NCBI GenBank assembly: GCA_015488115.1
Contig: WFOK01000014.1
Span: 1 to 55,721 of the forward strand
Length of the DNA stretch: 55,721 nt
Reading direction: 5' to 3'
Source: Mariprofundaceae bacterium
GTDB lineage: Bacteria > Pseudomonadota > Zetaproteobacteria > Mariprofundales > Mariprofundaceae
The first letter of the stretch is position 1. Every line of letters starts with the position of its first letter. This document shows, in pieces, positions 11,305 through 39,564 of this stretch. The translations under genes and the position numbers were made by a program. The notes under the pieces are model-generated. The model was not told where the DNA came from, searched no databases, and saw only the letters and a list, made by a program, of their open reading frames with translations.

Positions 11305-12078
11305 ATGGGGAAGCTGGCGATCCGGGCCGTCCTGCTTGACCTGGACGGCGTGCTTTACATCGGCCACCGTGCCATCGACGGCGCGCGTGACAGCGTGCTT
11401 CGCCTGCAGCAGGAGGGTTATGCCATCGCCGGTGTGACCAACACGACAACCATGCCGCGCAGGAGCGTCGCCGAAAAGCTGGCCACCATGGACATTCCCC
11501 TGGGTGAGGAACTGCTGTTCACACCGGCTTCCGCGGCATGTCGGCTCATCGGCAGGCACAGGGCCAAGCTTTATGTGCGCCCCGAGTTGCTCGAGGACTT
11601 CTCCGGGGTCCGGATGGATGCGGATCACCCCGAATTCGTGCTCATGGGTGACATTGGCGGCGAGGGCTATCCCCCGGAAGTCTTGCGCGAAATCTTCCTG
11701 CACATCATGGATGGCGCCCAATTGCTCGCCCTGCACAAGAATCGCTTCTGGCAAAGGCCTGATGGCTTGCATCTTGATCTGGGCTGCTTTGTCAGCGCCG
11801 TCGAATATGCGGCAAACACCGAGGCCACCGTGCTTGGCAAGCCCTCAAGGGACTTCTTTCTTGCGCTCTGCAACAAGCTGGGCGTCCACCCCGAAGCATG
11901 CCTCATGGTCGGAGACGACATCGAAAGCGATATCCTTGGCGCGCAGCAGGCCGGCATGAGGACGGCCCTGGTCAAGACGGGCAAGTACCGGGAGGAATTC
12001 GTTCGCAAACGCGGCATCCGGGCCGATCTCTTGCTTCCGAGCATTGCCGATTTGCCGGATGCCATGCATCTGCTCTAG
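11305..12078 (+). CDS. HAD-superfamily IIA hydrolase (LHPP/NagD-like phosphatase)
   Basis: A 257-residue phosphatase of the HAD IIA subclass, related to LHPP (phospholysine/phosphohistidine phosphatase) and NagD. Motif I is DLDGVLYIG (nucleophile Asp12 and general acid Asp14), motif II follows in GVTNTTT, the motif III lysine is in LGKPS, and motif IV is GDDIESDILGAQQAG. The substrate cannot be assigned. It is transcribed divergently from pyrE, with 83 bases between them. Its TAG stop is the first triplet of the dispersed repeat copy at 12076. Confidence 0.88.
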   Translation: MGKLAIRAVLLDLDGVLYIGHRAIDGARDSVLRLQQEGYAIAGVTNTTTMPRRSVAEKLATMDIPLGEELLFTPASAACRLIGRHRAKLYVRPELLEDFSGVRMDADHPEFVLMGDIGGEGYPPEVLREIFLHIMDGAQLLALHKNRFWQRPDGLHLDLGCFVSAVEYAANTEATVLGKPSRDFFLALCNKLGVHPEACLMVGDDIESDILGAQQAGMRTALVKTGKYREEFVRKRGIRADLLLPSIADLPDAMHLL

Positions 12079-12150
12079 CCCGGATTCTTCGTGACGACCA
12101 TGCGCCGGGATTTGACATGTCGAAACACAAAAAAGGTAGCATCGGCATGG
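12076..12150 (+). repeat. Dispersed intergenic repeat, copy A
   Basis: A 75-bp sequence that begins TAGCCCGGATT and ends GCATCGGCATGG. It matches 29935-30011 (opposite strand) with roughly ten differences and small gaps. Inside it are an imperfect hairpin (CCCGG paired with CCGGG about 20 bases on) and a second inverted pair (CCATGC/GCATGG), as in REP-like elements. It starts on the stop codon of the HAD gene and occupies half of the gap before the CinA-type gene. The rest of that gap (12151-12247) shows nothing I can interpret. Confidence 0.8.
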
Positions 12151-12247
12151 ACATGTTATTGAAGATGAACTCCCTGCATTTCGCGGTGCCATCCATCCGC
12201 GATCACATGAAACATCCGGGCCAGGGCAGGAGCCGGCCGGCGCGGAG

Positions 12248-13234
12248 CTAGACGCACTGAATGCCGCCCAAACGCTCCAGCAGCATGCTCAGGGCGTGAA
12301 CCGTCGTCGCCGCTTGAATGGATGCCCTGCCGCCCTCAAGGCAGCAGGACCGGCTGTCGATACTTCCATCCGGCAGCGCGATGGCCATCCAGACGGTCCC
12401 CACGGGCTTCTCCTCGCTGCCACCACCCGGGCCGGCCACGCCACTGACGGCCAGGCTGACACAGCCGGGCCGAAGCCCTCCCAGGGCCATGGCCTCCACG
12501 CATGGGCGACTGACCGCGCCCTGCTCCTCCAGGATGTCCCGACCGACGCCGAGCAGGGCTGTCTTGGCCTCGTTGGCGTAGGTGACCATGCCTCCCCACA
12601 AGACCCGTGAGGCTCCGGGCACGCGTGCAACCCGTCCGGCAACGCGCCCGGCCGTGCAGGATTCAGCCGTGACAAGACACAGTCCGGTGCGGTGAAGGGT
12701 CTGGACGACCATTTCCTCGGGCAAAAAGCCGCAATCGTTCAGCAGCAGCCCCCCCTCGCGCGTGCTCAGTCCCGGTTCGAGATCTCCCCGGCCGTCAGGG
12801 GTCCGATACACGTGCACAGGCCTTGGCTCCCGATCACCCGAGAAGAATGGCAGCCAGGCAAAGCGCTGGTAGGCGACATCCCCCGGAGGCATGAGCAGCG
12901 TTGGCCAGCGTTGCCGGTCACGCATGTAAAACCAGGCGCGGCGCGGCGGATTGTCCAGTTCGATGCACTCCCCGCCGACCACGCTTCGTGCACCGTCTTC
13001 GCCCATGCCAAGGCGGCGCCCGTGTTGCAGGACCACCCGACCGAATTCGCTTTCGTCCGCCAGCACCAGCATCCACCCCTTGGCCCCGATCCAGCCGTTG
13101 CCCCGCAAGCGATGAAACAGCACCTCGTCCGCCCCTGCCCCCCGCAACCAGGCCTTCAACCAGCCAAATGTCACTCCGGTGATGGCCAGCTCATCCCATG
13201 CGCGTTCATCGACGACAACGTGAGCCTGTCTCAT
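12248..13234 (-). CDS. CinA C-terminal (PncC) amidase domain fused to an unrecognised N-terminal domain
   Basis: The C-terminal half (about residues 175-325) is a CinA/PncC domain, which deamidates nicotinamide mononucleotide in NAD recycling. The signature AESCTAGRVAGRVARVPGAS and the later AVSGVAGPGGGSEEKPVGTV are clear. The N-terminal ~170 residues are not a normal CinA MoCF domain. They show only faint echoes of it, such as WPTLLMPPGD in place of the usual LPGPP loop. Stand-alone PncC proteins are about 165 residues, so this 328-residue form is a fusion or a strongly diverged CinA. Its ATG overlaps the pgpA stop (ATGA). Confidence 0.82.
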   Translation of the reverse strand: MRQAHVVVDERAWDELAITGVTFGWLKAWLRGAGADEVLFHRLRGNGWIGAKGWMLVLADESEFGRVVLQHGRRLGMGEDGARSVVGGECIELDNPPRRAWFYMRDRQRWPTLLMPPGDVAYQRFAWLPFFSGDREPRPVHVYRTPDGRGDLEPGLSTREGGLLLNDCGFLPEEMVVQTLHRTGLCLVTAESCTAGRVAGRVARVPGASRVLWGGMVTYANEAKTALLGVGRDILEEQGAVSRPCVEAMALGGLRPGCVSLAVSGVAGPGGGSEEKPVGTVWMAIALPDGSIDSRSCCLEGGRASIQAATTVHALSMLLERLGGIQCV

Positions 13235-27977: not shown

Positions 27978-29882
<1,905 letters not shown>

Positions 29883-29934
29883 CTATATCCGAGCAACAGA
29901 CTCGGGTATAGACTCAAGCCCCTTGAAGCCGCGC

Positions 29935-30011
29935 CCATGCCGATGCATCCCCTTTTTGGGTTTCGACATATTCAAATCCCGGCGCATGGTCATCATGAAC
30001 AATCCGGGCTA
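29935..30011 (-). repeat. Dispersed intergenic repeat, copy B
   Basis: On the minus strand this 77-bp sequence starts TAGCCCGGATT at 30011 and ends GCATCGGCATGG. It aligns with 12076-12150 over its whole length with about ten differences. The central 20 bases (GACCATGCGCCGGGATTTGA) are identical. It fills the gap between divergent thiC and ygfZ. The remaining leader (29844-29934) holds a small hairpin CCGAG-7-CTCGG at 29889-29905. Confidence 0.8.
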
Positions 30012-30013
30012 GC

Positions 30014-30970
30014 ATGCATGGCATGCATTTGCCCGAACTTTCACCGACCACGGCCGAAAAGCTTATGACGTCTTATGTCATGGGCATACGTCGTGGATGG
30101 CGTGTGTTGAAGCTTGGGGGTCCGGATATGACATCCTTCCTGCAGGGGCAGATCACCCAGGATGTCCGTTTGCTCACACCCGACCGCGCCATCCATGCAT
30201 GCGTGCTGACCCCGCAGGGGAAGGCAGTCAGCGAGATCCATGTGCTCATGGCCGGGGAACGCGAATCGTTCATGCTGAGCCCGGCCTGCGCCGCGGAAGC
30301 CCTGGTCTCCCGCCTGCGCCAGTTCGCCCTCGGCCATCAGGTACGCATCGGCATACTGCCCGAATTCGCCATCTGTTCCATACAAGGTGCACATGCGGCC
30401 GAAGGGCTTGCCAGTTTCGGGCTTGAGCAGCCTGCCTCACAATGGTTGTCCACGACGTTTCATCCAGGACATGCACTGGCAGCCATGACCATGCAGACCG
30501 ATCCCCCCGCCTTCTGGATTGTCGGCCCGGAAGATGAGCTCAAGGCGCACATACCAGCCACACACTCGGTTGATGAGGAGGAGCTGGAGGCCATGCGCAT
30601 CATCCGCGGTCTGCCCGTGTTCGGCAAGGAATGGGATGCCTCGGTGCATCCCTTGAACGCGAACCTGATCGAACTGCAGGGCGTCTCGTTCGACAAGGGG
30701 TGTTATGTCGGACAGGAGGTGACAAGCCGCATGCACTGGCGCGGCGCCATTCGCAAGAAGCTCTACCGCGTCCGTCTTGCCGATGCACCCATGACCCTGC
30801 CTTGCCCCATTCACAGGGCGACTCAGGCTATCGGAGAGCTCCGTTCGGCCGCCAGGGACCACGAAGGAAACATCCACGGTATCGCCCTGCTGCCGATCGC
30901 CAGCGCCGAGCAGGAAGGGTTGGACATCAATGGTGTACCCCTGACCATCATCGGGCCATGCCATGCCTGA
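30014..30970 (+). CDS. ygfZ: Folate-binding tRNA-modifying/iron-sulfur maintenance protein YgfZ
   Basis: A GcvT-fold protein that helps assemble or repair certain Fe-S enzymes and affects MiaB-dependent tRNA modification. The diagnostic KGCYVGQE motif is present (in FDKGCYVGQEVTSRMHW), as is FLQGQITQDV near the N-terminus. The start is uncertain: ATG 30014, 30023 or a later in-frame ATG near 30065 would all keep the domain. No clear ribosome-binding site helps. The 3' end overlaps the DUF4936 gene by 8 bases. Confidence 0.92.
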   Translation: MHGMHLPELSPTTAEKLMTSYVMGIRRGWRVLKLGGPDMTSFLQGQITQDVRLLTPDRAIHACVLTPQGKAVSEIHVLMAGERESFMLSPACAAEALVSRLRQFALGHQVRIGILPEFAICSIQGAHAAEGLASFGLEQPASQWLSTTFHPGHALAAMTMQTDPPAFWIVGPEDELKAHIPATHSVDEEELEAMRIIRGLPVFGKEWDASVHPLNANLIELQGVSFDKGCYVGQEVTSRMHWRGAIRKKLYRVRLADAPMTLPCPIHRATQAIGELRSAARDHEGNIHGIALLPIASAEQEGLDINGVPLTIIGPCHA

Positions 30971-31317: not shown

Positions 31318-31394
31318 TGGCGCACCCGGAGCGATTCGAACGCCCGACCCTCAGATTCGTAGTCTGATGCTCTATCCAGCTGAGCTACGGGTGC
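31318..31394 (-). tRNA. tRNA-Arg (anticodon ACG)
   Basis: A 77-base cloverleaf with encoded CCA. The acceptor stem GCACCCG pairs with CGGGTGC, the anticodon loop is CTACGAA and the T loop is GTTCGAATC. ACG is read as ICG after deamination, so it serves CGU/CGC/CGA. It is followed by the terminator at 31283-31310. Confidence 0.97.
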
Positions 31395-31411
31395 CTTGCA
31401 TTGTCTGCCCC

Positions 31412-31906
31412 TCATGGGGCGTGGCGAAGCCTAATGGCTTTCAACCATATTTTCCATCCCGAATCATCCATGCCGAACAGCTCGGGAAATTTCGCATACA
31501 GCCATCCATGATAGATGACCTTGCCTCCGTGACGGATTTCGACGAAGGCGGCGGGATTATCCACATTTTCGTCATCGAGAAAAGCCCCCGATGCATCCAC
31601 GCGCAGACCTGATGCCAAGCCCAGCAGATGCACCTGGAACCCTTCCATCTCGGCCTGCCCACCCGTCTCAACCGTCATGGCCCTGACACGAGCCGTGGTC
31701 TTTTCAAGCCACAGGAGGGTTGCCTCTCCCTCCCGACGAGCAGCCCAGACCGGAACATTCCCCTGTTCGGCTTCAGCCCCATGCGGATCCTCGTCGGGCT
31801 CCAGTTGCAGCTGCCAATGAATCTGCTCCGGTCGCTGTTCCTCGCAACCGCTCAACCCCAAGCCAGCCACGAGAGCCAGCAGGCAGACATACAGACGAGT
31901 CCTCAC
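31412..31906 (-). CDS. DUF2155-like lipoprotein
   Basis: A 164-residue lipoprotein. The GTG at 31906 gives a lipoprotein signal peptide with lipobox LSGC. Upstream in-frame codons run into tRNA-Ser and are rejected. The C-terminal half (WLEKTTARVRAMTVETGG..., AAFVEIRHGGKVIYHGWLYAKFPEL) resembles DUF2155, a domain found mostly in alphaproteobacterial secreted proteins of unknown role. That assignment is by eye. It lies between tRNA-Ser and tRNA-Arg and is probably on the same transcript. Confidence 0.72.
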   Translation of the reverse strand: MRTRLYVCLLALVAGLGLSGCEEQRPEQIHWQLQLEPDEDPHGAEAEQGNVPVWAARREGEATLLWLEKTTARVRAMTVETGGQAEMEGFQVHLLGLASGLRVDASGAFLDDENVDNPAAFVEIRHGGKVIYHGWLYAKFPELFGMDDSGWKIWLKAIRLRHAP

Positions 31907-31933
31907 GGCCTGCTCAGGCTTGCCGAAGGGATA

Positions 31934-32023
31934 TGGCGGAGAGAGAGGGATTCGAACCCTCGACACGGTAACCCGTGTAACACCTTAGCAGGGTGCCGCT
32001 TTCGACCACTCAGCCATCTCTCC
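31934..32023 (-). tRNA. tRNA-Ser (anticodon GCT)
   Basis: A 90-base class II tRNA with a long variable arm and encoded CCA. The acceptor stem GGAGAGA pairs with TCTCTCC and the anticodon loop is CTGCTAA, so it reads AGU/AGC. It lies 33 bases downstream of tRNA-Ser(TGA) and 135 bases after serS. Confidence 0.96.
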
Positions 32024-32056
32024 GTTTGCCAGGCCCTGCCCAGGCAGGGCCAGAAC

Positions 32057-32144
32057 TGGCGGAAGGGGTGGGATTTGAACCCACGGATGGTTGCCCATCG
32101 CCGGTTTTCAAGACCGGTGCATTCAGCCGCTCTGCCACCCTTCC
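32057..32144 (-). tRNA. tRNA-Ser (anticodon TGA)
   Basis: An 88-base class II tRNA with encoded CCA. The acceptor stem GGAAGGG pairs with CCCTTCC, the anticodon loop is CTTGAAA and the variable arm is long. It reads UCN codons. It begins 14 bases after the serS stop, so it is probably cut from the serS transcript. Confidence 0.96.
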
Positions 32145-32158
32145 GTGCGCGGCAAAAT

Positions 32159-33442
32159 CTATTCATTTGCAATGCGCTGTAAACCACCCATGTAAGGAGC
32201 CAGGGCCTCCGGGATCTCAACGCTGCCATCCTCCCGCCATCCATTCTCAAGCAACGCCACAAGGCAGCGCCCAATGGCCACCCCGGAGCCATTGAGCGTA
32301 GCCACAGGCTGCGGCTTCCCCTTGCCTGAGCGATAGCGAATGCCGGCCCGCCGCCCCTGGAACTGACCGAATGATGAACAGGAAGAAATCTCGCGATAAC
32401 GCTGCTGGCTGGGAAGCCAAACCTCGAGATCATAGGTTTTCTGGGCCGAAAACCCCAGATCGCCCGCACACAGCTCAACGACCCGGTAAGGAAGGCCCAG
32501 CGCCTGCAGCACGGCCTCGGCATGGGCAGTCAAGGCCTCAAGATCCTCGAGTGCCCGCTCGGGCAGGGTCAGATGAACAAGCTCCACCTTGTCGAACTGA
32601 TGTTGCCGGATCATGCCGCGCACGTCCCTGCCCGCGCTGCCCGCCTCCCGTCTGAAACAGGGTGTGTAGGCGCAATGCCGGATGGGCAGCCGGGAGATCT
32701 CGAGGATGCTCTCCCGATAGAGGTTGGTCACCGGCACCTCTGCCGTGGGGATCAGGTAGGCATCCTCTCCCTCAAGCTTGTAGAGGTCATCGGCAAACTT
32801 CGGCAGTTGTCCCGTGCCTGTCATCGTCCGCTGGTTCACGATGGCCGGCACCCAGACCTCATCATAGCCATGTTGCTCAACATGCAGGTCAAGCATGAAC
32901 TGCATCAGGGCACGCTCCAGTCTGGCCGCGGCACCCCGCAACACGGTGAAGCGACTGCCCGCAATCCTGGCGCCGCTTTCGAAATCAAGGATCCCCAATT
33001 GCTCGCCAATCTCGTAATGGGGTGGCACGCGATCGCTGCGTGGTTGTCCCCAGCGCCGGATTTCAACGTTGTCCTCTTCACTCTCGCCATCAGGGACGGA
33101 ATCAAGCGGCGGATTTGGAATCTCAAGCAGGATTCGCTCGAATTCCTCCTCGGCCCTCTTGGCCTCGCCTTGGAGCATGCGCAGGCGATCAGCCAGTTCG
33201 CCCATGGCCTCGATCTCCCTGGAGGCGTCCTCGCCATGGCGCTTCTTCTGCCCGATCAGCTTCGAAACGCGGTTGCGCTCGGCCTGCAGGGCCTCCAGTT
33301 CGGTTTTCAGACGGCGCTGCTCGCGATCAAGCTCTGCCACGCGCGCCCAGGCGCTGTCCGGCCCGACCACATCGGCACCGCGCCTGGACAGGGCTGCCTC
33401 AAGCTCTGCAGCGTGCTTGCGGATGTCCTTCCGATCAATCAC
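32159..33442 (-). CDS. serS: Seryl-tRNA synthetase
   Basis: A class II synthetase that charges tRNA-Ser. The start is GTG 33442, overlapping the gyrA stop by 8 bases. It gives 427 residues beginning [15 protein letters not shown], the usual SerRS N-terminus. The long-arm coiled coil that grips the tRNA-Ser variable arm spans about residues 30-105. Motif 2 ([21 protein letters not shown]) and motif 3 ([18 protein letters not shown]) are intact. Two cognate tRNA-Ser genes follow directly. In Pseudomonas serS sits after crcB in the ftsK cluster, so it has moved here. Confidence 0.97.
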
Positions 33443-35906
33443 GCCCGGATTCCTCCAGGGCCTCCTCTCCTTCCTCGCCTTGACGCTCGACCACCCGAAC
33501 CGCGCCAACCACGCGCTCCCCGGGCCCGCACTCGATAAGCTTGACCCCTTGCGTGTTGCGACCGATGACTGAAACGCCATCCATGCGTATGCGCACCAAC
33601 CGCCCCGTGTTCGTAACCAGCATGGCCTGATCCTCATCGACAACCTGGAGCGCCGCCACCATGGCACCATTGCGTCCGCCGGTCTTCAACGTGAACACAC
33701 CCTGTCCCCCGCGCCTTTGCACATTGTATTCCTCAACCGAGGTACGTTTGCCAAAACCATTCTCGGACACAGCAAGCAAGGTGGCGCGATCAGCCACCAG
33801 GGTCATCGAGATGACCTGATCCCCCTCAGGCAGTCTCATGCCGCAGACGCCGCGTGTCGCGCGCCCCATCGGGCGCACATCCTGCTCGGAAAACCGGATG
33901 CACTTGCCGCCGCTGGAGGCAAGCATGATGTCCTGCTCTCCATTGGAGACCCTTGCTGAGATCAGTTCATCGCCCTCATCGAGCTTGATGGCGATGATGC
34001 CGGTTGAGCGGATATTGGCGTATTCCGACAGCCTCGTCTTCTTGATGACGCCATGCCTGGTGGCCATGACGATGAAGTGCGTGTCATCGAAATCCCGCAC
34101 TGCAAGCGTCGTGGTTATCCTCTCGCCTTTCTCGACCGGAAGAAGATTGACCAGCGCCTTGCCCCGCGCTGCCCTGCCTGCCTGCGGAATCTCGTAAACC
34201 TTCTTGCGAAACACGCGTCCCCGGTCCGTGAAGAACAGCAGATAATCGTGCGTCGAGGCGACTATCAACTGCACGACAAAATCGTTCTCCTTCGTGGTCA
34301 TCGCGGTCTTGCCCTTGCCGCCCCGACGCTGGGCCCTGTAGAGGGAGACGGCGTTGCGCTTGATATAGCCTTCATTGGAAATCGTGACCACCATGTCCTC
34401 TTCGGTGATCAGGTCCTCGACCGAGAGTTCCGCCGTTTCATCGACGATCTCGGTGCGCCGCTCGTCGGCATACTGGTCACGAATCGCAGCCAGTTCCTCG
34501 ACAATCACCTCCATGAGCAGACGGTCATCGGACAGGATGGCCTTCAGCCGGGCGATCGTCGCCTGCACTTCTTCATACTCGGCCTTGATCTTGTCCCGTT
34601 CCAGGCCGGTCAGCCTCTGCAGGCGCATGTCCAGAATGGCCTGGGCCTGCTTCTCGGACAGGCCGAAGCGATCCATCAACCCCTGCTTGGCCTCGGGCGG
34701 CGTCTGGCTGGCTCGGATGAGACGCACGATTTCATCGATATGGTCCAGCGCAATGAGCAGGCCCTCGAGAATGTGCGCCCGCGCCTCGGCCTTCTTCAGT
34801 TCGAACAGACAGCGACGCGTGACAACCTGACGCCGGTGATCGATGAAATGCAGCAGCAATTCGCGTACGCCACAGAGCTTCGGCTGGCCGTCAACAAGCG
34901 AGAGGTAGTTGCAGCCAAAATTGCATTGAAGCTGGGTATGCTTGTACAGGTTGTTCAGAATGACTTCGGGAATCTCGTTCTTCTTGAGCTCGATGACGAT
35001 GCGCATGCCCTCACGGTCGGACTCGTCGCGCAGATCGGCAATGCCCTCGATCTTCTTGTCGCGAACAAGCAGGGCGATGTTCTCGATCAATGTGGCCTTG
35101 TTCACCTGATAGGGCAACTCGGTGATCACCAGGCTTTCGCGCTTGGTTCGGGGATGAATCTCCACGATGGCCCTGGCGCGCATCGTGACCGAGCCGCGAC
35201 CGGTCAGAAAGGCATCCTGCATGCCCTTGCGTCCATAGATGAAGCCGCCCGTGGGAAAATCCGGGCCGGGCATGATCTGCATCAGCGTGTCATCGTCGAC
35301 ATCCGGTTCCTCGATCAGCCTGATGGCTGCATTGATGGTCTCGCCAAGGTTATGCGGGGGAATGTTCGTCGCCATGCCCACGGCGATGCCCTGGGAGCCG
35401 TTGACGAGCAGGTTCGGGAACTTGGCCGGCAACACCTTCGGCTCCTTCAAGGACTCATCGTAGTTGGGCATGAAATCCACGGTGTCCTTGTCAATGTCGG
35501 CCAGCAGTTCGGACGCAAGGCGGCTCATGCGCGCCTCGGTATAACGCATGGCCGCGGGCGAATCGCCATCCACCGAACCAAAATTGCCCTGTCCGTCCAC
35601 GAGCACATGGCGCATGCTCCAAGGTTGCGCCATGCGGACAAGCGCATCGTACACGGCCGTGTCGCCGTGCGGATGGTACTTACCGATAACATCGCCGACC
35701 ACGCGCGCGGACTTCTTGAAGGGCTTGTCATGCGTGCAACCAAGCTCATGCATGGCATAAAGGATGCGGCGGTGCACGGGTTTGAGGCCGTCTCGGGCAT
35801 CGGGAAGCGCCCGGCCGACAATGACGCTCATCGCGTAATCGAGGTAGGAGGTTTTCATCTCCTCCTCGATCAACACGGGAACGGCAGGATTGATCATTTC
35901 ATCCAT
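33435..35906 (-). CDS. gyrA: DNA gyrase subunit A
   Basis: The DNA-cleaving subunit of gyrase. The 823-residue protein numbers like E. coli GyrA through the N-terminal domain: catalytic Tyr122 (in AAMRYTEAR), and position 83 is Thr with Asp at 87. The GyrA box QRRGGKGK begins the C-terminal DNA-wrapping domain and separates it from ParC. Six beta-pinwheel blades follow. It lies 25 bases after tRNA-Arg(CCT) and is coupled to serS. Confidence 0.98.
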
Positions 35907-35931
35907 CTGACATGCATCCTTGGCAAAAATA

Positions 35932-36008
35932 TGGTGCCCTCGACAGGATTTGAACCTGTGGCCTACCGCTTAGGAGGCGGTCGCTCTATCCAGCTGAGCT
36001 ACGAGGGC
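35932..36008 (-). tRNA. tRNA-Arg (anticodon CCT)
   Basis: A 77-base cloverleaf with encoded CCA. The acceptor stem GCCCTCG pairs with CGAGGGC and the anticodon loop is CTCCTAA, so it reads AGG. It lies 25 bases before gyrA on the same strand with no terminator between. The 52-base gap to apt holds nothing I can identify. Confidence 0.97.
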
Positions 36009-36060
36009 ATTGCTTGGGCAGGGGATCATAGCGCGCTTGAAGCGGGTCGTCACCGGCAAG

Positions 36061-36594
36061 TTAATCCTCAAAATGCACGACGCTGTGAACAGGAACGTCG
36101 GCAAGCTTCTGCCGTCCATGCAGATCATCGAGTTCGATGAGAAACACGCATTCGCTCACCTCGGCGCCCAGCGCGCGCACAAGCTCGACAGCCGAGGCCG
36201 CGGTGCCTCCTGTGGCCAGCAGATCATCGACAATCGCAACCCGGTGACCGGGAGCAAGCGCATCGCGATGGATCTCCAGCATGTCCACGCCATATTCGAG
36301 TTCATATTCCACGGCATGGACAGCGGCCGGCAGCTTGCCTGGCTTGCGCACCGGCACGAAACCAAGGTCCATCTGCACGGCCAGCGCCGCTCCGAAGATG
36401 AAGCCGCGCGATTCAATGCCCACGATGGCATCCACATCCGAGCTCACAAAGCAGCCCATCTGGGATACGGCCGCGCCAAAGGCATCACCATTGGCCAGCA
36501 ATGGGGTCACGTCCCTGAAACGCACGCCGGGTTTTGGAAAGTCAGGAATTTCACGGATGTAATCAAGCAGATTGATCGCCGGTCTTGCAGTCAC
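36061..36594 (-). CDS. apt: Adenine phosphoribosyltransferase
   Basis: Salvages adenine to AMP with PRPP. The PRPP motif VAIVDDLLATGGTA and the N-terminal IPDFPKPGVRFRDVTPLL are typical. ESRGFIFGAALA and RKPGKLP complete the family pattern. The start is GTG 36594, which overlaps the rpoS stop (GTGA) and has GAGGAAA 7 bases upstream. The 177-residue length is normal. It is co-transcribed with rpoS. Confidence 0.96.
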   Translation of the reverse strand: MTARPAINLLDYIREIPDFPKPGVRFRDVTPLLANGDAFGAAVSQMGCFVSSDVDAIVGIESRGFIFGAALAVQMDLGFVPVRKPGKLPAAVHAVEYELEYGVDMLEIHRDALAPGHRVAIVDDLLATGGTAASAVELVRALGAEVSECVFLIELDDLHGRQKLADVPVHSVVHFED

Positions 36595-37436
36595 AATATT
36601 TCCTCCACGCCTACCCTCTCACGTTCGGCAATGGCCCGCAATTTTTTCAATGCAGCCATCTGTATCTGCCGGATACGCTCCCGCGTCACGCCCAGATGTT
36701 CGCCAATGGCTTCCAGGGTCCAAGGCTCGTGAACGTCATCGAGCCCGAAACGCAAGCGAACGACATCCCTTTCCTTTGGCGAAAGCTCGTCAAGCCACAT
36801 GCGGACCAATCGCCTTCTGCGCGCGTGCCCGAGCTCCTCTTCGGGCACCGTGCCCTGCTCATCTTCGACGACATCATAGAGCGTGAAGTCCCCATCGTCC
36901 TGCAGGGCATCATCGACACTGTCCGTGGGCAATGCCGCCGACAACAGCGTGCGCACGCGCGCCTGACTGAATCCGGAGGCCTCGGCCAGCTCACTTTCCG
37001 TGGGTTCACGGTGCAACTCGGCTCGCAGGCGGCCGGCATGATACATCAGGGAATTGAGTTCCTTGCCGACATGCACGGGAAGCCGGATGGTCCTGCCCTG
37101 ATTCATGACCGCCCGTTCCACAGCCTGCCGAACCCACCAGGTGGCATAGGTTGAAAAACGGCAGCCATGAGTATGATCAAACTTTTCCACGGCATGAATA
37201 AGCCCGAGATTGCCCTCCTCGATAAGATCAGCCAATTGAACGCCACGATACATGTAACGGCGCGCAATCTTGACCACGAGGCGCAGGTTCGCATTGATCA
37301 TCCTCTCACGCGCCTCCATGTCGCCGGCGGCAATCCGCTTGGACAATTCCACCTCTTCCTCCGGCGTCAGCAGCTCATGCTGCGAAACCTCGCGCATGTA
37401 AAGGGTGACCGGATCTGAACTAATCCGCCTGGACAT
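36591..37436 (-). CDS. rpoS: RNA polymerase sigma factor RpoS (group 2 sigma-70)
   Basis: The stationary-phase/general stress sigma factor. Region 1.2 (DPVTLYMREVSQHELLTPEEE), region 2 (NLRLVVKIARRYMYRG, DLIEEGNLGLIHAVEKFD, FSTYATWWVRQAVERA), region 3 and region 4 (LTRERIRQIQ-type helix: LGVTRERIRQIQMAALKKLR) are present. The start at 37436 has AGGGAAG 7 bases upstream. The 281 residues are fewer than the ~330 of E. coli because the acidic region 1.1 is absent. The identity is supported by the pcm-yqaA-nlpD-rpoS order. Part of its control may come from promoters inside nlpD, but none is certain. Confidence 0.93.
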   Translation of the reverse strand: MSRRISSDPVTLYMREVSQHELLTPEEEVELSKRIAAGDMEARERMINANLRLVVKIARRYMYRGVQLADLIEEGNLGLIHAVEKFDHTHGCRFSTYATWWVRQAVERAVMNQGRTIRLPVHVGKELNSLMYHAGRLRAELHREPTESELAEASGFSQARVRTLLSAALPTDSVDDALQDDGDFTLYDVVEDEQGTVPEEELGHARRRRLVRMWLDELSPKERDVVRLRFGLDDVHEPWTLEAIGEHLGVTRERIRQIQMAALKKLRAIAERERVGVEEIL

Positions 37437-37470
37437 CAATACTTCCCTGCATGAGCATGATGCCAATATC

Positions 37471-38193
37471 TCATCGCCTCGGCAAATACGCAAGCGGATC
37501 GACGGGCGTCGTGCCGCGACGCACCTCGAAATGAAGATGTGGGCCGCTGGCGCGACCGGTGTGACCGACCCGGGCGATGATACTCCCGCGCCTGACCTTC
37601 TGACCCTTGTACGCAAGAAGTCGCTGATTGTGGGCATAGGCCGTAAAGAAATTTCCGGCATGACGCAGGATAACCATCTTGCCATAACCGCTCAGCCGCT
37701 GATCGGCATAGACAACCACGCCATCGGCCGCCGCAACGACGGGAGCCCCCTCCCTTGCCGCAATGTCGATACCGTCATGCGTGCGGCTTCCCCGCTTGCC
37801 AAATCCGCTGGTGACCTTGCCCTTCACAGGCCATATGAAGCGCACACTGCCAAGGGATGCCTGCTGCCTGTTGACCGGCTTCGCACTTCGAATGTGCCTT
37901 GAGGAGCCATGGACACCGGGCAGCCTGCGGGGTGGTGGCGCGACCCCCCAGAGCACCAATTGCTGCCCCACATAGATCGTATACGGATAACGGATGTGAT
38001 TGCGCCGGGCAAGCGCATGATAATCCATGCCAAAGCGCTTGCCGATGCTGTAAAGCGTATCCCCCTGCCTGACCGTGTACACGGAAGCATGGGGCACGGC
38101 GCGCGGTTGGACATGTTCGGGCATCTCCGTGCGATGGCAGGATGCCGCCAATAAAAGCGCGAGCATCAGCCACGCCCTCAGCGCCAGAGCCAT
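37471..38193 (-). CDS. nlpD: NlpD-type LysM-M23 lipoprotein with complete LytM active site
   Basis: A 240-residue lipoprotein with lipobox LAASC, a LysM peptidoglycan-binding domain (YTVRQGDTLYSIGKRFGMDY...) and a LytM/M23 domain. In E. coli NlpD the LytM domain is degenerate and only activates AmiC. Here HDGID, AYAHN and PHLHFEV keep all zinc and catalytic histidines, so it may be an active endopeptidase. The start at 38193 overlaps the end of yqaA by 16 bases. The ribosome-binding site is weak. The position directly before rpoS supports the NlpD name. Confidence 0.88.
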   Translation of the reverse strand: MALALRAWLMLALLLAASCHRTEMPEHVQPRAVPHASVYTVRQGDTLYSIGKRFGMDYHALARRNHIRYPYTIYVGQQLVLWGVAPPPRRLPGVHGSSRHIRSAKPVNRQQASLGSVRFIWPVKGKVTSGFGKRGSRTHDGIDIAAREGAPVVAAADGVVVYADQRLSGYGKMVILRHAGNFFTAYAHNQRLLAYKGQKVRRGSIIARVGHTGRASGPHLHFEVRRGTTPVDPLAYLPRR

Positions 38194-38783
38194 AGCGCGA
38201 CAAAGCCCGAGACCACAAGAATGACGACAAGCAGCGTCATCCACTCAAAATGGCGCTCGACAAATCCCCTCATGCGTTCGCCGCCCCACCTGAGCAGCAT
38301 GCCCTCGAGGTAGAAGCGCGCCCCACGGGAAAGCAAGGCCGCCAGAATGAAGGCGGGGAAGAAGAGCCCGAAGGCCCCCGAGGCAAGGGTGATCACCTTG
38401 AACGGAATCGGGGAAAAGCCAGCAATCAGCACCAGGGCCACGCCCCAACGCGCGAAAAGCTCCTGGGTATGCCTGAATTGTTCCATGGCACCATAAAAAT
38501 CCAACAGGGGCTCGGCAACGCTCGTGAACAACAGCATGCCGACGAGATAGCCGACGACTGCCCCCACCACGGAGCCGGCCGTTGCCAGCGAAGCAAACCG
38601 GAGGGAGAGATCGGGTCGCCCCAATGCAAGCGCGATGAGTAGCACATCCGGCGGAATCGGGAACACGCACGCCTCAATAAGCGCAATGCCGAACAAGGCC
38701 CAACCTGCCTGTGGATGGTCTGCCCACGCAAGGGTCCAGTGATAGCTCCGCCTTAGCCAGCCAAGGACCGAATTCGAACGCAT
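38178..38783 (-). CDS. yqaA: YqaA-family membrane protein (SNARE-associated/DedA-like)
   Basis: A 201-residue inner-membrane protein of the DedA/VTT superfamily, YqaA branch. The characteristic IEACVFPIPPDVLLIALALGRP (residues ~33-54) and the GFSPIPFKVITLASGAF re-entrant motif are visible, along with a C-terminal helix. DedA-type proteins are linked to lipid-carrier recycling and membrane energetics. The ATG at 38783 lies 17 bases after the pcm stop. The upstream frame overlaps pcm and is not used. Confidence 0.9.
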   Translation of the reverse strand: MRSNSVLGWLRRSYHWTLAWADHPQAGWALFGIALIEACVFPIPPDVLLIALALGRPDLSLRFASLATAGSVVGAVVGYLVGMLLFTSVAEPLLDFYGAMEQFRHTQELFARWGVALVLIAGFSPIPFKVITLASGAFGLFFPAFILAALLSRGARFYLEGMLLRWGGERMRGFVERHFEWMTLLVVILVVSGFVALWLWR

Positions 38784-38799
38784 GCGGGACCCGGTGAAT

Positions 38800-39456
38800 T
38801 CAGCGATGACCGACTCCTTCCAGCAGCGGAACGAACGTGCAGTCATCAAGGTATTCCTCGTCGAAGGCGCCATCTGCGCGCTTTCGACGGCGAACCAGGC
38901 GATGAACGCCCGCTTTCCCCTCGGGCATGACGATGACACCGCCGATGCCCAATTGTTGCATCCATGCATGGGACGCAAATCCCCCTGCCGTGACGATGAT
39001 GGCGTCAAAGGGCGCATAGTCCGGCCATCCCAGCAATCCGTCCCCGCACTTGAGCATGACATTTGCGGCGCACCGCGCATGACGCAGATTACGTCGAGCC
39101 TTTTCATGCAGGCTCGGAATGCGTTCAATACTGTAGACCCGCCGGCAAAGATGTGAAAGCACGGCCGTCTGATAGCCACAGCCCGTTCCGATCTCAAGCA
39201 CCTTCTCATGTCCGCAGAGAGCAAGCAGCTGGGTCATGCGCGCCACCATGTAGGGCTGGGAAATGGTCTGCCCCTCCCCGATGGGCAGGGCTGAATCCTG
39301 ATAGGCCCTGCGTCTTAACGGCGAATCGACAAAAAGATGACGCGGTACCGTGGCCATGGCCTCGAGCACACGCGAATCGTCGATGCCGCGCGCCAGCAAC
39401 TGCTGTGCAATCATCCGGCGCCTGGCGCGCTCATAAAAATGGCCATCCTGGTGCAT
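38800..39456 (-). CDS. pcm: Protein-L-isoaspartate O-methyltransferase
   Basis: Methylates isoaspartyl residues in damaged proteins using SAM. The motifs are [23 protein letters not shown], the SAM loop [15 protein letters not shown] and FDAIIVTAG. The frame begins at ATG 39456, which lies inside the terminator hairpin of the upstream tRNA-Pro. An in-frame ATG at 39414 is the next choice but would shorten the conserved N-terminal helix. Neither has a good ribosome-binding site. It heads the pcm-yqaA-nlpD-rpoS-apt chain. surE is not adjacent. Confidence 0.94.
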
Positions 39457-39477
39457 CAGTGCACCGGGATGGCCATT
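39435..39477 (-). terminator. Rho-independent terminator of tRNA-Pro that contains the pcm start codon
   Basis: On the minus strand an 18-position stem (AATGGCCATCC and TGCACC arms with one mismatch) closes on a 4-base loop and runs directly into TTTTT. It ends the tRNA-Pro transcript 7 bases after its CCA. The ATG of pcm (39456-39454) lies at the loop side of the stem. Confidence 0.85.
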
Positions 39478-39483
39478 GAGAAA

Positions 39484-39564
<81 letters not shown>

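Follow-up and report, generated by a model that had tools for sequence, protein, structure and literature searches.

Genomic Context of the Repeat

The window, i.e., the whole stretch of 55,721 nucleotides analyzed here from contig WFOK01000014.1 of a Mariprofundaceae bacterium (genome G000), contains two copies of a dispersed repeat in opposite orientation, at 12076-12150 on the plus strand and at 29935-30011 on the minus strand. Both start with TAGCCCGGATT and finish with GCATCGGCATGG, and a whole-genome search with a query of 77 bases shows them to be 88% alike (E = 2e-20), in agreement with the first-pass annotation made from the letters of this DNA. The block of 76-77 bp, which that annotation had taken as the unit, is the left terminus of a larger element, and its initial TAG belongs to a target-site duplication outside the element. 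The features of the two loci are summarized in Table 1.

Table 1. Positions of the two element copies and of their neighboring genes in the window.
Feature	Position	Strand	Remark
HAD-family hydrolase gene	11305..12078	+	ends on the CTAG of copy 1
Left target-site duplication of copy 1, CTAG	12075..12078	+	TAG at 12076-12078 is the stop of the HAD-family gene
MITE copy 1	12079..12220	+	142 bp, two ends, internal deletion
Left terminal inverted repeat of copy 1, CCCGGATTCTTCGTG	12079..12093	+	
Right terminal inverted repeat of copy 1, CCCGGATGTTTCATG on the minus strand	12206..12220	-	
Right target-site duplication of copy 1	12221..12224	+	now CCAG, one change from CTAG
CinA-domain gene	12248..13234	-	convergent neighbor of copy 1
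thiC	27978..29843	-	divergent neighbor of copy 2
MITE copy 2	29931..30008	-	left end only, right end unrecognizable
Left target-site duplication of copy 2, CTAG	30009..30012	-	exists element-free in G003
GCV_T/CAF17-like (YgfZ-type) gene	30014..30970	+	divergent neighbor of copy 2

The HAD-family gene retains its own TAG at copy 1, where neither an intrinsic terminator nor a promoter was found. An Rfam search of the window at gathering scores returned no match but five tRNAs, which are all encoded on the minus strand in a stretch of about 8 kb (31321-39560).

Structure and Copy Number of the Element

When its own genome was searched with the 77-base query, 41 matches were obtained at E <= 10, of which thirty had values below 1e-9. 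A 246-base consensus matched 43 pieces at E <= 1e-5, and merging these left 32 distinct places in the 1.69-Mb assembly, so that the repeat greatly exceeds chance expectation and is not limited to two copies. Flanks were read for 30 copies, and both ends are present in 25, which are 88-251 bp long and mostly near 245 bp; the remainder of the 32 places beyond this two-ended set either lack one end or fall outside those 30. The element runs from CCCGGATTTTTCATG to CATGAAAAATCCGGG, has the terminal inverted repeats CCCGGATNNTTCATG, and is flanked by a 4-bp duplication of the form YTAR, mostly CTAG. The left and right flank words are identical in 16 of the 25 two-ended copies (CTAG in 14, CTAA in 1, and TTAG in 1), and positions outside the 4-bp words differ between copies. 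Several properties of a MITE are thereby present: a noncoding sequence of 50-500 bp with inverted ends (the copies read have no transposase), multiple dispersed copies, and a target duplication with element-free alleles.

Two further arrangements were observed in G000. One odd copy (L015, G000:C30:14585-14818) keeps the left part and the right end around a middle of unrelated DNA with a short open reading frame (ORF), and this 31-aa ORF has only its self-match in 41 genomes and no Pfam family. Two 88-bp copies (L026 and L027, G000:C70:17231-18516) stand in opposite orientation about 1.2 kb apart, and both sites are element-free in G003.

Element-Free Sites in a Sister Genome

G003 is a close sister of G000, with a HAD gene protein identity of 86% and an assembly that is 86% complete. 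At the site of copy 1 it reads CTGCTCTAG followed by a short unrelated spacer, with the same CTAG stop and no element, and at the site of copy 2 it reads CTAGCATGCATG, again with no element. The joined flanks of 14 further copies were searched in G003, and in 10 cases the alignment covered both flanks of the junction. A single YTAR stands at the junction in 8 of these 10 (CTAG in 3, CTAA in 2, TTAA in 2, and TTAG in 1) and is missing in 2 (L005 and L027). Among the other four, L011 aligned by its right flank only, with CTAA at the edge, L009 aligned as two separate pieces with additional sequence between them, L006 reached a contig end, and L014 was unmatched.

Symmetric ends, a target duplication, and empty sites are the marks of a cut-and-paste element. 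The first-pass annotation had instead likened the repeat to REP-type elements and had proposed a search for a REP-associated tyrosine transposase, i.e., a REP/BIME-type palindrome would be moved by a Y1 transposase (RAYT). The initial bases do resemble a Pseudomonas mendocina REP, listed as GTAGCCCGGATGCAATCCGGG in the available part of PMC2817692, and Y1_Tnp genes are present in 23 of the 31 genomes searched; however, PF01797 was unmatched in G000 (98.65% complete) and in G013, the genomes read richest in full copies, and TAGCCCGGAT was absent from 11 Y1_Tnp loci of other genomes. The likeness to the P. mendocina REP may have prompted the first-pass assignment. Furthermore, the same part of that source defines the REP head as GT(A/G)G (PMC2817692), and a REP would combine this head with a single GC-rich palindrome, whereas the present element is two-ended, with matched YTAR duplications on both sides and clean empty sites. 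For G000, the REP/RAYT reading is refuted, save for the case that the unassembled 1-2% contains a Y1 transposase, and overall we regard it as extremely improbable. What stands of the earlier description is a dispersed mobile repeat that has spread in its lineage, as indicated by the 32 places, the copy tree described below, and the element-free sister; its assignment to the REP type falls with the lack of a Y1 transposase and with the symmetric ends.

Distribution and Relatedness of the Copies

A consensus search of 21 genomes gave 43 pieces in G000, 13 in G001 of the same genus, and 2, of the right half, in G008 of the same family; G002 and G003, both of the same genus, were unmatched in this search. 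Full copies are present in two assemblies besides G000, namely G001 and G013, the latter belonging to another genus and lying outside the 21-genome search. A scan of the named genomes for the interior pattern returned 10 stretches, all in two Mariprofundaceae metagenome-assembled genomes (MAGs).

An alignment of 24 full or near-full copies was prepared (14 from G000, 2 from G001, and 8 from G013; shortened copies such as L008, L010, and L023 were omitted). The 14 full-length G000 copies group together with support of 100/97, with short inner branches and longer end branches, a shape such as one burst might leave, and these copies differ by 7% on average from their own consensus. The single group, together with the element-free sister, bears out the spread in this lineage that had been suggested at first. 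The identity between G000 and G013 is 87% in the right half (alignment columns 109-233) vs. 65% in the left interior (columns 19-80), as if left interiors had been exchanged among copies.

Candidate Mobilizer

In a search of 398 genomes, the same ends at the spacing of an insertion sequence (IS) were found once among the matches listed, in G125. This element comprises 1567 bp including its flanks, carries CTAA on both sides, and has a transposase gene split into two open pieces by a stop; its ends are CCCGGATATTTCATGA, with 15 of 16 end bases the same as in the MITE. The first transposase piece matched NF033539 (IS1380) at 2e-13, under the model cut-off, and the second matched PF13701, which we take to be the Pfam counterpart of IS1380, at 1e-118. 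Furthermore, an intact IS1380 in G015, of the same bacterial family, has the related ends CCTGAATTATTCAT and CTAG/CTAA flanks. The IS1380-type interior has no similarity to the G000 MITE, and this confinement of the likeness to the ends makes the element a type II MITE. As the same ends occur on an IS1380-family relic, an IS1380-family transposase is likely the mobilizer, judged by its terminal sequences. Similarity to the end of a known IS, which the first-pass annotation had named as evidence against its own reading, was thus obtained in the qualified form of this relic.

IS1380 was not found in any of the three genomes with full copies (G000, G001, and G013), and we therefore infer the partner from the ends alone; the family is probably stranded in G000 for the same reason, with its mobilizer lost or unassembled. 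A counterpoint to IS1380 is that the sole exact-end IS among the matches listed is interrupted and belongs to a distant genome. A search for the partner IS in plasmids gave one weak match, to an IS1380 gene of Acidovorax, with 12% of the query covered.

Other transposase groups were also considered. IS701 is associated with YTAR, and it was rejected as the mobilizer, its model NF033540 having no hit in G000 and no hit above the cut-off in 41 genomes. IS630 duplicates TA within CTAG; the TTAG/TTAG and CTAA/CTAA pairs indicate that all four bases are duplicated, and IS630 was therefore dropped. An L065-type DDE element in G033 is without the ends of this MITE and was set aside; G033 has at least nine near-identical copies of this kind of gene, a 494-aa DDE transposase that is weakly IS701-like, under the model cut-off (L065, L073, L077, and L080-L084, among others).

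Of the families known to duplicate YTAR, IS5 is so reported in the available text of PMC10359306, and carrier genomes without a detected IS1380 would suit movement of the MITE by a family such as this; nevertheless, the ends match the IS1380-type relic and resemble those of the intact IS1380 of the same bacterial family, and we consider such an origin improbable. IS1380 itself is mentioned in PMC4133298 and PMC3542288; PMC5896051 and PMC4853749 were also consulted.

Short elements of 48-178 bp with CCCGGATNNTTCATG ends, YTAR flanks, and unrelated interiors were observed in G033 (L061, L089, L121, and L122), G036 (L091/L117), G133 (L116), and G009 (L062/L119). Several MITE families seem therefore to share these ends. 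In G033, two ends also overlap into a bare palindrome.

Insertion at Stop Codons and Convergent Gene Ends

For the analysis of insertion sites, genes were called by our own simple codon-score caller. The stop codon of a neighboring gene is hit in 20 of the 25 two-ended copies, and in 7 of these the YTAR terminates both genes of a convergent pair. Among 115 control YTAR sites in 386 kb, all of them outside genes, the corresponding numbers are 39 and 2 (p = 3e-5 and 7e-5), and the difference holds at three score settings. When the control was restricted to CTAG (330 kb), 32 sites lay outside genes, with 11 single stops and 0 shared stops, vs. 17 stops and 7 shared stops among the 21 CTAG copies (p = 0.002 and 0.0008). 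The convergent context shows the stronger effect, being found in 15 of 25 copies vs. 15 of the 115 controls (p = 3e-6). Inside convergent contexts, the ratio of double to single stops does not differ significantly between copies and controls (7:8 vs. 2:10, p = 0.22), nor does that of stops to plain intergenic sites outside them (5:5 vs. 27:72, p = 0.15). The pattern can therefore be explained by survival at harmless places alone, and most of it is accounted for by the convergent context. In G003, all 5 readable shared-stop sites are also shared stops, which consequently were not created by the element.

The following course of events is proposed. An IS1380-family transposase, now absent from the assembly, would act in trans on the MITE ends, and the element would be cut out and joined to a YTAR tetranucleotide, of which the four bases would be copied. 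As YTAR is its own reverse complement and gives a TAR stop on both strands, insertion at a gene-ending YTAR would restore the stop of that gene, as well as the stop of any facing gene with a common YTAR; with a stop on each side, insertion would be harmless, and gene-ending YTAR sites, like convergent gene ends in general, would be the harmless places where copies survive. Alternatively, transposition may home to gene ends, with shared stops being favored either by the machinery or by the state of the DNA at the 3′ ends of convergent genes. By a scaled estimate, about 7 of 16 shared-stop YTAR sites are occupied in G000, the free count being derived from 2 sites in 386 kb. If true, homing would be a built-in safe harbor that makes insertion costless to the host; we consider it unlikely.

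The association with convergent genes would also fit a domesticated element under selection, serving as a bidirectional insulator or as a structured RNA between such genes. In folding, two of the full copies surpass nearly all of their shuffles (z -3.2 and -2.6). Conservation of the right half between genera is high, as noted above, and a hand-drawn structure is 90% paired, a value that none of its slid versions and none of 500 shuffles reached. However, covariation, which had been recommended as a check at the outset, is weak in the interior: two-sided changes occur in only 5 of 37 pairs of the hand-drawn structure, 4 of them in the inverted ends, and in 6 of 48 pairs of an automatic consensus structure. 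Furthermore, 19 of 200 shuffles fold as well as copy 1, copy 1 has no terminator-like match, many copies are shortened or broken, and G003 manages without the element. The covariation and folding data do not establish an RNA function, and selection of this kind is very unlikely.

We hold it highly probable that the repeat belongs to the non-autonomous DNA transposons, as a MITE of about 245 bp, with mobilization in trans of the IS1380 type as suggested by its ends, and with survival at harmless YTAR sites. Provisionally, it may be regarded as a new family of an already known kind. As in the first-pass annotation, it was not recognized as a described family: besides the lack of an Rfam match, no Mariprofundaceae MITE like it was described in the literature searched, which included few subscription journals and did not cover ISfinder, and the same literature gave no description of a habit of MITEs at convergent genes or stop codons. 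A MITE family linked by its ends to the IS1380 group would thereby be added to the Mariprofundaceae. More generally, a YTAR-duplicating transposon may persist in a compact genome because the copied bases rebuild the stop of each gene ending there, and two facing genes with one YTAR in common would both retain unaltered proteins; this applies as a prediction to other YTAR transposons, IS5 included.

Comparison with Known Systems

The P. mendocina REP shares the letters TAGCCCGGAT...ATCCGGG with the present MITE, which differs from REP/RAYT systems by its symmetric ends, target duplication, length of ~245 bp, and lack of a Y1 transposase in the genome. The piggyBac transposon has a 4-bp palindromic target, TTAA, which is a YTAR word (available part of PMC10813416); piggyBac is eukaryotic, whereas the MITE copies are mostly at CTAG. 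IS5 resembles the MITE in the 4-bp YTAR duplication by its description (PMC10359306, in part), and differs from it in that the MITE ends match the IS1380 relic. The likeness to IS1380 comprises the ends of the G125 and G015 elements and the YTAR flanks; by contrast, the MITE has no transposase gene and an unrelated interior, and a repeat of 5 bp is given for one IS1380 member in PMC3281130. The type II MITEs, e.g., Chunjie of Geobacter uraniireducens and QMITE1/2 of Coxiella, are similar in their length of 50-500 bp, inverted ends, direct repeats, tens of copies, many of them shortened, and IS similarity limited to the ends, according to the available text of a MITE review (PMC10969869), in which IS1380, stop codon, and convergent are not mentioned. 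The present MITE is unrelated to these in sequence as far as searched, and is distinguished from them by IS1380-type ends and a strong bias for convergent gene ends and shared stops.
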